Part shown: piece by piece, positions 7,806 to 13,514 of the stretch | Position numbering within the stretch: the first letter of the stretch is position 1 | How the letters are laid out: each line of letters starts with the position of its first letter | IMG/VR virus record: IMGVR_UViG_3300020446_000072 | Location: 1 to 25,803 of that record | Length of the DNA stretch: 25,803 bases | Direction: 5' to 3' (one strand) | Source: a virus | Program-made: the position numbers and the translations under genes | Notes under the pieces: generated by a model | The model's input: only the letters and a program-made list of their open reading frames with translations | What the model was told of the DNA's origin: nothing | The model's database searches: none

Positions 7806-8396
7806 ATGAATAAGAAATTAGAAAAAACATTTGATTTACCGAGTATGGAAGAAGCACTAGATAATCAAGAACATGATGAGTCATCAGTTGATATTGATGC
7901 TGATGAGATAGATACTTCATCAGCCGCCGCCCATGCCGAATTAGATAAGGCAGAAGTAGAAGAACAAGAACAAGTTATCAAAAGAGCTCTTACTACTGCT
8001 GAAAAAATTGATAAAGCATTACCACAAGTAAAAGACTTACAAACACATGATACGGATATGGATTCATATTCCGGAGAAGCAATGAAGTCTTACAGAGAAC
8101 TAATGGATCTTGGCATGAATTCAGAAGCCAGACACGCTGGTAAATTTTTTGAAGTAGCACAAACTATGATGAAAAATGCCATAGAAGCCAAGAATGCAAA
8201 AGCAGACAAAAAGTTACGTATGATTGAACTACAACTTAAAAAACAGAGGGTTGATCAGTGGGATAAGCGTGATAATGGCGAACAAGATGTCATAGAAGGC
8301 GAAGGTTTTGTGGTAGGAGACCGTAATAAACTACTAGATCAGCTGATTGAAAAGGTAAAACAAAACGACGATAAAACAGAAGACAAGGATAAATAG
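7806..8396 (+). CDS. 16: Small terminase subunit gp16
   Basis: 196 residues (T4 gp16 is 164). It recognises DNA and regulates the gp17 packaging motor as a ring oligomer. The N-terminal 60 residues are acidic and probably flexible (ESSVDIDADEID). The core, about 85-155, matches gp16: a YSGEAMKSYRELMDLGMNS helix, then FFEVAQTMMKNAIEAK and KLRMIELQLKKQRVD, consistent with the coiled-coil oligomerisation helices. A C-terminal VVGDRNKLLDQLIE recalls T4 FMGSPTELMDEI. The ATG starts two bases after the gp4 stop, so translational coupling is likely. Unlike T4, four genes separate it from gp17. Confidence 0.82.
   Translation: MNKKLEKTFDLPSMEEALDNQEHDESSVDIDADEIDTSSAAAHAELDKAEVEEQEQVIKRALTTAEKIDKALPQVKDLQTHDTDMDSYSGEAMKSYRELMDLGMNSEARHAGKFFEVAQTMMKNAIEAKNAKADKKLRMIELQLKKQRVDQWDKRDNGEQDVIEGEGFVVGDRNKLLDQLIEKVKQNDDKTEDKDK
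8388..8395 (+). promoter_or_regulatory. Late-type promoter box, N5-ATG geometry
   Basis: GATAAATA, one mismatch from the T4 late consensus, overlapping the gp16 stop. Five bases (GAATT) separate it from the ATG at 8401. Predicted leaderless transcript. Confidence 0.65.
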
Positions 8397-9052: not shown

Positions 9053-10071
9053 ATGGAGATCGTAGAGAAGAAATATGTACTTCAAGTTGCCGACTTAGGT
9101 GACTTCGATCTTGATGATGATAGAAGCATTGATTCATCAATTGCTTTTGAATTGAAACAAGCTGGAATACCAGCAACAGTACATGGCAACGAACACACAA
9201 GAGATACAGTTGAGATTGAAACATCAGCAACTTTAGATGAACTAAAGAAAGTATTTCAAGATGCGGATCTTGCCGCGGAGATAGACATGAAAGAAGATGA
9301 ACAATACGTGAGAACAGGTCCAGGTCATTTTAAACAAGATGACTTTGTAAGTTCAGTCAAGAAGTCAAAGAAGTTCAAGTACGTTTCAGCTAAACAAGGT
9401 GACAACGCACTTGCTGATGAAGACCAGCAAACTAAAACAAACGAAGCTGAAGAAAAACTTTACACACAGCTCAAAGAAGAGTACAGCAAGTTTGTAGAAG
9501 ACGCTGAAGAAAAAAAAAGACTGAAAAATCAGGACTAACTGAAAACGACGCCGCGATAGTACAAGCGTTAAATCGCGATAACTCAGGTCTCTTCAACAAA
9601 TACAAAACAGAATACGCCAAGGCATTAAACGATGCCAAGTTAATAGCGGATAGAAATCCAAAAGCATTTACGAATCAAGATATACTTTTACAAACAGCAG
9701 TTGGAAATATTTTTAAACAAGGCAGGGCTAGAAATAATTTTGGCAGAATAGTTCCGGTAAATCAAGATGTTGACAAAATGATCGGAGACATCAAAAGATT
9801 AACAGGTGCAGGAATAGGACCTGTGAGAGTTCAAGTCACTAACCTAGAAGACGTTCAAAATATGTTAAGCAGAATAGCAGTCGGTGAACCATTCTCTGGA
9901 ATGGAAAACATGATTAAGACTGAAGCAGATGTATATCATTTTAACGGTGTCAGAAGTTTGATACTTGACATATTAAGAGGACAAGCCACAGCAACCAGAC
10001 TTGGTAACTTAGGTGGCGCACTTAAAACAGCGGCCGGCGACATTGCCAGAGCGGCAGGCGTAGAACAATAA
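9053..10071 (+). CDS. Two-frame gene, probable -1 frameshift fusion (161 aa / 339 aa)
   Basis: The first frame (9053-9538) gives a 161-residue protein starting MEIVEKKYVLQVADLGDFDL, with a small α/β domain and a charged helical C-terminus. The second frame (to 10071) encodes 184 residues (GLTENDAAIVQALNRDN..., ending ARAAGVEQ) with no ATG, GTG or TTG before 9778. The two meet at an A9 run (9510-9518) containing A AAA AAA in the first frame. A -1 slip there yields 339 residues. The second frame is closed by TGA at 9505-9507, so the shift must fall within 9508-9538. The ATG at 9053 has a GGAAG site upstream. I recognise no family. The alternative is a homopolymer sequencing or assembly error, or a real broken gene. 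Confidence 0.65.
9511..9519 (+). promoter_or_regulatory. Candidate -1 ribosomal frameshift site
   Basis: A AAA AAA followed by AG in the phase X XXY YYZ of the upstream gene: the P- and A-site AAA codons (9512-9517) can re-pair one base back. No strong stem lies at the usual 5-9 nt downstream; a weak TCAG/CTGA hairpin begins 12 nt after the site. Transcriptional slippage on A9 is an alternative. Confidence 0.5.
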
Positions 10072-10075
10072 TAAG

Positions 10076-10089
10076 CAAGGAATTCCTTG
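10076..10089 (+). promoter_or_regulatory. 14-bp palindrome covering the RBS of the radical SAM gene
   Basis: CAAGGAATTCCTTG is a perfect inverted repeat. As RNA it folds into a 5-bp stem with an AATT loop that buries the AAGGA Shine-Dalgarno and touches the first base of the GTG start codon at 10089. It could damp translation, or bind a dimeric protein as DNA. Confidence 0.6.
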
Positions 10090-11408
10090 TGAACAAACTT
10101 GAAAAAACTAAACAAAGACTAGACACGGTTTCGCCATCATTTTGCCTTGCAAAGTGGCAACAAGTGACAATACATTTACAGAATGGACATACCCACAGTT
10201 GTCACCATCCACAAACACACAAGATACCATTAGCGGAAATTGAAAAAGATCCGTCAGCATTACACAACACACTATACAAGAAACAACAGCGTAAACTGAT
10301 GCTGGAAGGAAAAAGACCTGATGAATGTGGTTACTGTTGGAAGGTGGAAGACACACAGGGAGATCACTACAGCGACAGGGTGAAGAAAAGTAGCAACAGC
10401 ACATGGGCTGAACCTTACTTTGACAAAGTGGCCACGAGTAATTGGGACGAGTCTGTAAATCCTGCACAGGTAGAAGTCAGTTTTGGTAACGTGTGCAATA
10501 TGAAATGTGTTTATTGTAGTCCAGTGTTCAGCAGTGAATGGTGGAGTGAAGTCAAGAACCATGGAGCATATCCCACACAGGACAGTTACAACAATCTTGA
10601 ATGGATAGCAGAAACAGACAGGACACCATACCTCAACAGGGAAGACAATCCTTACGTTGATGCATGGTGGAAGTGGTGGCCGGAAGCCAAACAGGATCTG
10701 AAAGTTCTAAGGATAACAGGCGGCGAACCTTTCCTTAACAAGAACACCGCAAAACTGATAAAAGACATTGAAGCAAATCCATTGCCAGATATGAGGTTGG
10801 AAATAAACACGAACCTCAGCCTGTCCTCGGACATAATAACCAACAACGTACTACGGTTAAAACAGTTGAAAGAATCAGGCAAAGTCAAAGACGTGATGAT
10901 ATACACCAGTTGTGATTGTCATGGAAAGCAGGCAGAATACATAAGGGAAGGAATGGACTATGATAAGTGGTATAGTAACTGTAAAATGGTGGTTAAAAGC
11001 GGCATATCCTTGCATATAATGGTGACTGCTAACTTGTTAAGCATTGACACCATGCATGAACTAATGACGGACATATACGCTTTAAAACGCGACTATGACG
11101 GTGTTACGTACGGTGTTAGCATATTGCATAGCCCTAGTTTCTTGAACCTATTGGTATTACCAAAAGACGAGTATTGGAAGCAAAAATTTACAGACGTTTT
11201 TGAGTATGTGAGCGGGTCTAAACACACAGGAGTGAATGAGTTCAACTATGTGCAACGCTTGATGAATTATTATAATGAGAATCAGTTAGAAAACAGTGAG
11301 CTACAGAAAAGAAGAGTTGATTGCAAAAACTTTGTTCAAGAAATAGACCGAAGACGTAATAAAAATTTTACTAATACATTTAGTAACTACAACTTCCTAA
11401 CCATTTAA
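10089..11408 (+). CDS. Twitch-type radical SAM protein
   Basis: 439 residues with a GTG start set by AAGGA eight bases upstream. A radical SAM core is shown by C136-x3-C140-x2-C143 (CNMKCVYC), which ligates the 4Fe-4S cluster that cleaves SAM, and by GGEP (211-214). Before the core lie paired cysteines C38 and C80-x2-C83 (SCHHP, ECGYC), typical of N-terminal twitch-domain radical SAM proteins that bind an extra cluster. The substrate is unknown. Relatives occur in phages and marine bacteria, often with peptide, glycan or nucleotide modification contexts. The first two thirds of the gene look richer in G+C (several lines count 42-52%) than flanking genes, suggesting acquisition. It interrupts the T4-conserved gp16-gp17 pair. 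Confidence 0.88.
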   Translation: MNKLEKTKQRLDTVSPSFCLAKWQQVTIHLQNGHTHSCHHPQTHKIPLAEIEKDPSALHNTLYKKQQRKLMLEGKRPDECGYCWKVEDTQGDHYSDRVKKSSNSTWAEPYFDKVATSNWDESVNPAQVEVSFGNVCNMKCVYCSPVFSSEWWSEVKNHGAYPTQDSYNNLEWIAETDRTPYLNREDNPYVDAWWKWWPEAKQDLKVLRITGGEPFLNKNTAKLIKDIEANPLPDMRLEINTNLSLSSDIITNNVLRLKQLKESGKVKDVMIYTSCDCHGKQAEYIREGMDYDKWYSNCKMVVKSGISLHIMVTANLLSIDTMHELMTDIYALKRDYDGVTYGVSILHSPSFLNLLVLPKDEYWKQKFTDVFEYVSGSKHTGVNEFNYVQRLMNYYNENQLENSELQKRRVDCKNFVQEIDRRRNKNFTNTFSNYNFLTI

Positions 11409-11903: not shown

Positions 11904-13514
11904 ATGGTAAGAAAAAGTCTTGAAGGTAACCTAACAAAAAAAGCATACAGCAAGTCAAAATACAATGACAAAAAGTTATTAGACTTGAAAAAATGTGCTG
12001 ATAAGGATAATGGCTACTTGTGGTTCATGGAGAATCATATGTGGATACAACATCCTACTAGAGGTAGGTTGAAATTCAAACCTTACGAGTTTCAAAAAAG
12101 ATTATTAGAAACTTATAATGATAATAGATTTGCTATAGCGATGTGTGCCAGACAAACTGGTAAGACAACCTGTGCGGCAGGATTTCTGTTATGGTATGCA
12201 ATGTTCAATCCAGATGTTTTGATTTTAATTGCGGCACACAAATATCAAGGTGCCCAAGACATCATGCAACGTGTGAGATTTGCGTACGAAGAGTGTCCTG
12301 ACTATATTAGATGTGGCGTGACAAGTTACAATAAAGGATCAATGGACTTTGATAATGGATCAAGAATCATAGCACAGACAACTACAGAAACAACAGGACG
12401 TGGTATGTCCATTTCAATGATATACATGGATGAGTTTGCGTTCGTTGAACCACAGACCAAAGCACAAGAATTTTGGACTTCCTTATCTCCAACATTGTCA
12501 ACAGGTGGTAAGTGTATTATTACATCTACACCAAATAATGATGATGATGTATTTGCAGGATTATGGAGAGGTGCCAACAGTAAAGTTGATGAGTATGGAC
12601 AGCCAACAAGAGATGGAACAGGTATAAATGGTTTTAAAGCCATAGGAGTACACTGGAGTGAACACCCTGACAGAGATGAAAAATGGGCCAAAGATGAAAG
12701 AGCAAGAATTGGTGAAGAAAGATTTAGGCGAGAACACGATTGTGAATTTATTGCTTTTGATGAGACACTTGTAGATGGATTGAAGTTAGTGACACTGACC
12801 GGCAAAGATCCTCTCTATAAAACAGGACAGGTACGTTGGTATGAAAAGCCAAGGAAAGGAACCACATATGTTGCGGCCTTGGATCCTAGTCTTGGTACAG
12901 GTGGTGACTATGCCGCCATACAAGTTTATAGTGTTCCTGAGTTGAAACAAGTTGCTGAATGGCAACATAATAAAACACCAGTACAAGGACAAGTAAGGAC
13001 CTTGCTAGGTATATTACAAGAATTAGATACACAATTAAAAGACCTCGGAACACCTAATCCAGAATTGTACTGGACAGTTGAGAACAATGCAATGGGTGAA
13101 GGTGCTATTGTGTCAATTGAAGAAATGGATGAATCAAAGTTTCCTGGATTCTTTATGCATGAACCGAGAAGAGCAGGACAACAACGAAGAGATGTACATA
13201 AAAGAAAAGGTTACAACACCACACACAAAGCAAAGATTACGGCTTGTACAAAATTAAAACATTATATAGAATCAGGAAAGATGACTGTAAACAGTAGAAA
13301 CTTGATTAGAGAGTTAAAATTATTTGTTGCCAAAGGAAATTCATATGCGGCCAAACTAGGTGAAAATGATGATTTAGTATCAGCGACTCTTTTGTGTTGT
13401 AGGCTAGTGCAATACCTAACAAGATATGATCCTATATTTGAAAAAAGTCTAGGATTAAGAGATGAGGATGATGAGGGCGATGGTTCTGTAGTACCAATGC
13501 CTATGATCATATAA
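11904..13514 (+). CDS. 17: Large terminase subunit gp17 (ATPase and nuclease)
   Basis: 536 residues (T4 gp17 is 610). It is the packaging motor and headful nuclease docked on the portal. The N-terminal ATPase has an adenine-binding PYEFQKRLL (60-68), Walker A CARQTGKTT (81-89), Walker B MIYMDE with catalytic Glu (172-177) and a TSTPNN coupling motif (208-212). The C-terminal RNase H-like nuclease starts near 320, with D327 in AALDPS as first metal ligand; further acidic ligands should lie in the E394 region (TVENNAMGEG) and near the C-terminal ENDDLVSA. The acidic last 20 residues are typical of marine gp17. It is separated from gp16 by four genes. Confidence 0.95.
   Translation: MVRKSLEGNLTKKAYSKSKYNDKKLLDLKKCADKDNGYLWFMENHMWIQHPTRGRLKFKPYEFQKRLLETYNDNRFAIAMCARQTGKTTCAAGFLLWYAMFNPDVLILIAAHKYQGAQDIMQRVRFAYEECPDYIRCGVTSYNKGSMDFDNGSRIIAQTTTETTGRGMSISMIYMDEFAFVEPQTKAQEFWTSLSPTLSTGGKCIITSTPNNDDDVFAGLWRGANSKVDEYGQPTRDGTGINGFKAIGVHWSEHPDRDEKWAKDERARIGEERFRREHDCEFIAFDETLVDGLKLVTLTGKDPLYKTGQVRWYEKPRKGTTYVAALDPSLGTGGDYAAIQVYSVPELKQVAEWQHNKTPVQGQVRTLLGILQELDTQLKDLGTPNPELYWTVENNAMGEGAIVSIEEMDESKFPGFFMHEPRRAGQQRRDVHKRKGYNTTHKAKITACTKLKHYIESGKMTVNSRNLIRELKLFVAKGNSYAAKLGENDDLVSATLLCCRLVQYLTRYDPIFEKSLGLRDEDDEGDGSVVPMPMII

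Follow-up and report, generated by a model that had tools for sequence, protein, structure and literature searches.

A single gene in the structural cluster of a marine T4-like myophage may encode two proteins, with programmed transcriptional slippage at a run of nine adenines (A9) as the most likely cause, a reading to which we give a probability of roughly 0.58. The source record is an IMG/VR-type viral contig of 25,803 bases with T4-like gene content; this whole stretch of DNA is referred to here as the window. According to the proposed mechanism, the templated A9 reading would end just past the run and yield a 161-aa protein consisting of the N-domain. A transcript with one additional A (or two As fewer) would be read on in the -1 frame through a mostly helical second domain, giving a protein of 339 aa. 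RNA polymerase would realign on the A9 and thereby produce a mixture of A8, A9, A10, and A11 mRNAs, of which only A10 (modulo 3) would lead to the long protein and the other lengths to short proteins. Given its place in the head/tail structural cluster, the gene probably specifies a virion or assembly protein as its short form, to which the long form would add a variable C-terminal domain. Three points are inferred from the sequence: the production of both proteins, slippage by the polymerase and not by the ribosome, and a role in the virion.

Two overlapping frames at the A9 run

The features of the gene in the window are as follows.

9053..9538, + strand: N-domain ORF in the 0 frame, 161-aa short product with the C-terminal end EEKKRLKNQD*
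9510..9518, + strand: putative A9 slippage run, holding A AAA AAA, the -1 heptamer, at 9511-9517
9509..9537, + strand: 29-nt junction GAAAAAAAAAGACTGAAAAATCAGGACTA, defined by sequence comparison
9508..10071, + strand: C-domain ORF, read in the -1 frame over 187 codons (9508-10068), with the stop extending to 10071
9540..9990, + strand: hypervariable stretch of the C-domain, with approximate boundaries from 60-nt blocks

The hypervariable stretch is limited by the slip site on its left and by the conserved last part of the C-domain on its right. A preliminary description of the window had reported two overlapping ORFs at the A9 run, and this holds for both frames, for the end of the 161-residue ORF, and for the TGA at 9505-9507 that closes the -1 frame. 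After this TGA the -1 frame is open as described, with a length of 187 codons and not the 184 originally counted. It likewise proved correct that no ATG, GTG or TTG precedes position 9778 in this frame, the first being the ATG at 9778, 243 nt in and inside the conserved domain, and that the heptamer A AAA AAA lies in the correct phase. In conceptual translation, ten As at the run joined the N-domain and C-domain into the 339-aa product that had been predicted, and seven As restored the long frame as well. Eight As had also been expected to give one continuous frame; this was mistaken, as the reading then stops at EEKKD*. The peptide SGLTENDAAIVQALNR is the predicted second-frame sequence of the long product. 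Besides the junction, the 25.8 kb of the window contain no second run of at least nine As or Ts, and a near-identical contig from another metagenome carries the same A9.

Conservation of the junction among relatives

Relatives were collected by scanning viral contigs with single proteins and with alignments, which yielded 38 loci, and the junction was readable in 32 contigs, the window counted. An exact A9 with the C-domain in the -1 frame occurs in 23 of these 32, so the two-frame arrangement for which the preliminary description had wished homologues to be checked is indeed shared. The remaining contigs fall into three types. Ten As fuse the frames into one ORF in three contigs (L047, L049, and L063); a TAATG stop/start overlap without any run is found in five (L069-L072 and L074), where the C-domain ORF begins at the ATG of the overlap; and in one contig (L073) only the N-domain is present, with another gene behind it. 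The five relatives with separate ORFs and the one with the N-domain only speak against a universal fused form. Besides the window, 25 contigs have A9 or A10 at the same junction.

Reads with eight or ten As giving one continuous frame, and relatives with a single ORF and no slippery run, had been named beforehand as evidence against the frameshift. Relatives with ten As and one continuous frame exist, but they retain an A10 run of which the A9 and A11 versions terminate immediately, and as judged from these sequences the A10 relatives extend the pattern and do not refute it. The five relatives that lack the run are arranged as two ORFs.

The A9 run occurs in two codon phases, xAA AAA AAA AGA (the window, L006, L007, L004, L053, L048, L050, L051, and L052) and xxA AAA AAA AAG (L054-L062 and L064-L068). 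Run length is kept at 9-10 As in either phase and the phases are split by clade; because 9-10 As persist in both, it is the run itself and not one heptamer that appears to be kept. Moreover, the A9/A10 arrangement spans about six N-domain clades. In the N-domain tree, whose deeper forks are weakly supported, the TAATG group forms one clade and A10 appears at two positions; at one of these, L063 groups with the A9 relatives L065-L068, the N-domains being about 88% identical. The presence of A9 and A10 inside one clade is what one would expect were a mixture of products to arise from either length.

The 29-nt junction is identical in the window, L002, L003/L007, L004, and L005/L053. The C-domain of L005 is just 38-39% identical, yet its junction is unchanged. 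Additionally, a scan with the DNA pattern for KKRLKNQD returned 13 stretches, comprising four homologues, all with the identical junction (4/4), and nine unrelated sequences. Taken from these alignments, the junction is a conserved frame switch, a real recoding site rather than a sequencing error. As a separate observation, N-domains of the FDLDEDRSI type are found on their own or in different surroundings too (L077, L078, L079, and L073), in L078 immediately upstream of a gp32-like gene.

Selection and hypervariability in the second frame

Past the 0-frame stop, the -1 frame of the C-domain has a dN/dS of 0.15-0.34 in nine of ten pairs and of 0.44 in the remaining pair, whose sequences are almost identical. 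The C-domain protein can be aligned across all clades. The second frame is thus coding and under purifying selection. Sequence identity between close relatives drops directly past the slip site and rises again towards the end of the C-domain; this is seen in the pairs window/L009, window/L004, L070/L069, and L062/L054, and the pattern is weaker in L052/L048 and L066/L068. Between the window and L007, dS is 0.058 in the N-domain before the slip site versus 0.945 in the C-domain past it. From just past the slip site, the C-domain can be described on these comparisons as a hypervariable cassette in several lineages, for which the exchange of divergent alleles would be the simplest reading. The C-domain is hypervariable between conserved flanks also in the TAATG relatives, which have no A-run.

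Proposed polymerase slippage and alternative explanations

In many bacterial genomes such runs are avoided at a length of nine nucleotides, and selection against them elsewhere in the genome serves as a criterion for slippage sites (PMC1088944). At the present junction a run of at least nine is conserved together with an alternative frame, and such runs are avoided elsewhere. In 20 representative loci, only one run of at least nine As or Ts lies outside the junction in 182 kb of coding sequence; these loci contain 16 runs in all, 15 of them at the junction, versus 19.9 +/- 3.3 in synonymous shuffles. Across roughly 340 kb of DNA from relatives, runs away from the junction are nearly absent. 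In the clade of L056, the radical-SAM gene has a second A9 close to its start (L056 at 6811, L057 at 7033, and the corresponding site in L058-L061); this run is in frame (KTKKKL), and slippage there would truncate the radical-SAM protein.

Furthermore, both frames that do not give the long product stop soon past the run in all 18 of the A9/A10 loci tested, although the closure of the +1 frame gives modest support as stops are estimated to be common in such AT-rich DNA. Nor is the persistence of nine As purely polymerase evidence, since Glu, Gln, and Lys codons partly force the flanking As. In the A10 lineages the system would be a mirror image, with the long protein templated and the short protein slipped.

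The principal alternative is programmed -1 ribosomal frameshifting at A AAA AAA (or at A AAA AAG in the other phase), by which the 339-aa fusion would be made from A9 mRNA; we regard it as possible, with a probability of about one in three. The heptamer is in phase at 23/23 A9 loci, with A AAA AAG also available in one phase, and the 0-frame stop comes within a few codons of the run. Frameshifting of the -1 type is usual in phage tail genes (PMC5009743), and a simple -1 slip at low yield needs no strong stimulator. However, no RNA fold 3' of the run is shared among 14 loci (z from -2.9 to +0.6, the -2.9 belonging to L054), a search result with which frameshifting by weak or absent stimulators is compatible. 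A common Shine-Dalgarno-like element 5' of the run was not seen in alignments inspected by eye, and Rfam gave no match in the window. Ribosomal frameshifting also does not predict A9 in two phases, in-frame A10 relatives, closure of the +1 frame in 18/18 loci, or the avoidance of A9 and T9 runs. The two phases, the A10 relatives, the closed frames, the avoidance elsewhere, and the lack of a shared fold together favour slippage by the polymerase, which on comparative grounds we place ahead of the ribosomal shift at roughly two to one. Transcriptional slippage, which the preliminary description had mentioned as a second possibility, would thus move to first place, with the ribosomal shift behind it.

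It is very improbable that the C-domain is made separately through internal initiation or termination-reinitiation, the A-run being incidental. The five TAATG relatives do start the C-domain ORF at the ATG of the overlap, and a TTG overlaps the stop in some L056-type loci. In the other direction, the first canonical start lies anywhere from 0 to 393 nt past the stop, and the conserved A9/A10 would be left without a reason; an internal start for the second domain was rejected as the start codons are not conserved. Finally, a sequencing error or a decaying frameshifted gene, with a single A10 ORF as the true gene, would suit a homopolymer with single-ORF A10 relatives but is hardly credible given A9 in 23 contigs, on which count sequencing error was rejected, and purifying selection on the second frame.

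Comparison with known systems

Polymerase slippage of the proposed kind has close parallels in bacteria. Thermus thermophilus dnaX (A9), Shigella mxiE/spa13, and tssM1/tssM3 all share with the present gene a long in-gene A run, a short and a long protein, and slipped frames that are closed nearby. In Thermus dnaX, transcriptional slippage at an A9 is accompanied by stops near in the other frames (PMC5009743, PMC1088944). Slippage at the A11 of tssM1 gives a long form and at the A9 of tssM3 a short form (PMC4256274), so that, as proposed here for A9 and A10 relatives, the templated product of one relative is the slipped product of the other. Unlike these systems, the gene described here belongs to a lytic-type T4-like phage structural cluster, occurs in several phage clades, and has a hypervariable second domain, a distinction drawn from sequence. 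Bacterial IS elements with A9 transcriptional slippage similarly join two overlapping ORFs at the A9 (PMC1088944), whereas here no transposase is involved and the gene lies in a phage virion-gene cluster.

The phage tail-assembly chaperone pair gpG/gpGT, made by -1 ribosomal frameshifting, resembles the present gene in its short and C-terminally extended forms (predicted at 161 and 339 aa here), in coming from a morphogenesis gene, in the -1 direction, and in an overlap located towards the first ORF's end. It differs in that the present gene has no chaperone-family match, a different gene position, and A10 in-frame relatives. The suggestion that both forms could be made in a fixed ratio, by comparison with tail-assembly chaperones, amounts to a possible analogy at most, there being no homology and the gene position being different.

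If true, these findings would mean that conserved slippage by RNA polymerase is used in a phage structural cluster. The natural series (two phases of A9, in-frame A10, TAATG overlap, lone N-domain) would then show a gene switching between routes to two products. Gene callers split or truncate the gene, so the 339-aa protein is absent from annotations. Moreover, the slip site coincides with the edge of the hypervariable domain, which would make the question of why the short form is constant and the long form variable directly testable. In the open-access papers searched, no phage structural gene was described as having a conserved site of transcriptional slippage. For a T4-like Campylobacter phage, transcriptional slippage has been suggested for a single methyltransferase gene (PMC2853527).

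Protein identity and gene neighbourhood

The AlphaFold model of the N-domain (mean pLDDT 68) has the order beta-alpha-beta-beta-alpha-beta with a conserved loop, and its long C-terminal helix ends at the slip site; the domain as modelled is ferredoxin-like in the order of its strands and helices. For the C-domain, the model (mean pLDDT 80) consists mostly of helices. For either domain, there was no significant match in Pfam or PHROGs at the thresholds used, and none in sequence and fold searches of the PDB. Capsid-protein matches of the C-domain profile (E 0.03-0.04) were weak and judged to be chance, as were weak PHROG matches. In tblastn against 50,697 annotated phage records, neither domain found a match apart from a lone chance one at E 8, and no relative was found in GTDB genomes. 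Small terminase (gp16) was rejected as an identity for want of a small-terminase family match in PHROGs or Pfam for either domain. A tail-assembly chaperone of the G/GT type was also rejected, as these databases gave no chaperone-family match and the gene is not located between tail tube and tape measure. On sequence comparison it is an undescribed two-domain protein encoded in the structural cluster, and its position suggests a virion or assembly role.

The genes of the window include those for tail sheath, tube, head closure (phrog_218), the large terminase (11904-13514), and recombination. The frameshift gene has a head structural gene on one side and a radical-SAM gene on the other, with gp17 two genes downstream. 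It had been placed between the terminase genes, which does not hold: no small terminase is evident, neither domain matches one, and the large terminase lies beyond the radical-SAM gene (10089-11408) and another ORF. In many relatives, a sequence of the radical-SAM-gene type (LEKTKxxLDSVSP...CLAKWQQVT) comes after the C-domain.

The cluster is syntenic with that of Pseudomonas phage PA5oct, comprising dNMP kinase, sheath, two tubes, head closure, two structural proteins, and terminase. The two PA5oct genes ahead of the terminase are annotated as coding for structural proteins detected by ESI-MS/MS, and the window gene upstream of the frameshift gene has phrog_14802 in common with its PA5oct counterpart. 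PA5oct gp281 (YP_010678933.1), a structural protein whose annotation likewise gives detection by ESI-MS/MS, occupies the same place in the cluster as the frameshift gene. However, it is a single ORF of 498 aa which, apart from a possible AK(x)GDNAL motif, has no clear sequence homology; as a homologue it was rejected, the likeness being one of synteny only. Elsewhere in the window, the gene at 7806-8396 shares phrog_16202 with PA5oct 9277-9783 (L082), whose protein has a weak match to a tail-assembly-chaperone PHROG (E 0.003). On the minus strand, a Cys-rich ORF of 135 aa at 1596-2003 looks by eye like an HNH-type endonuclease.
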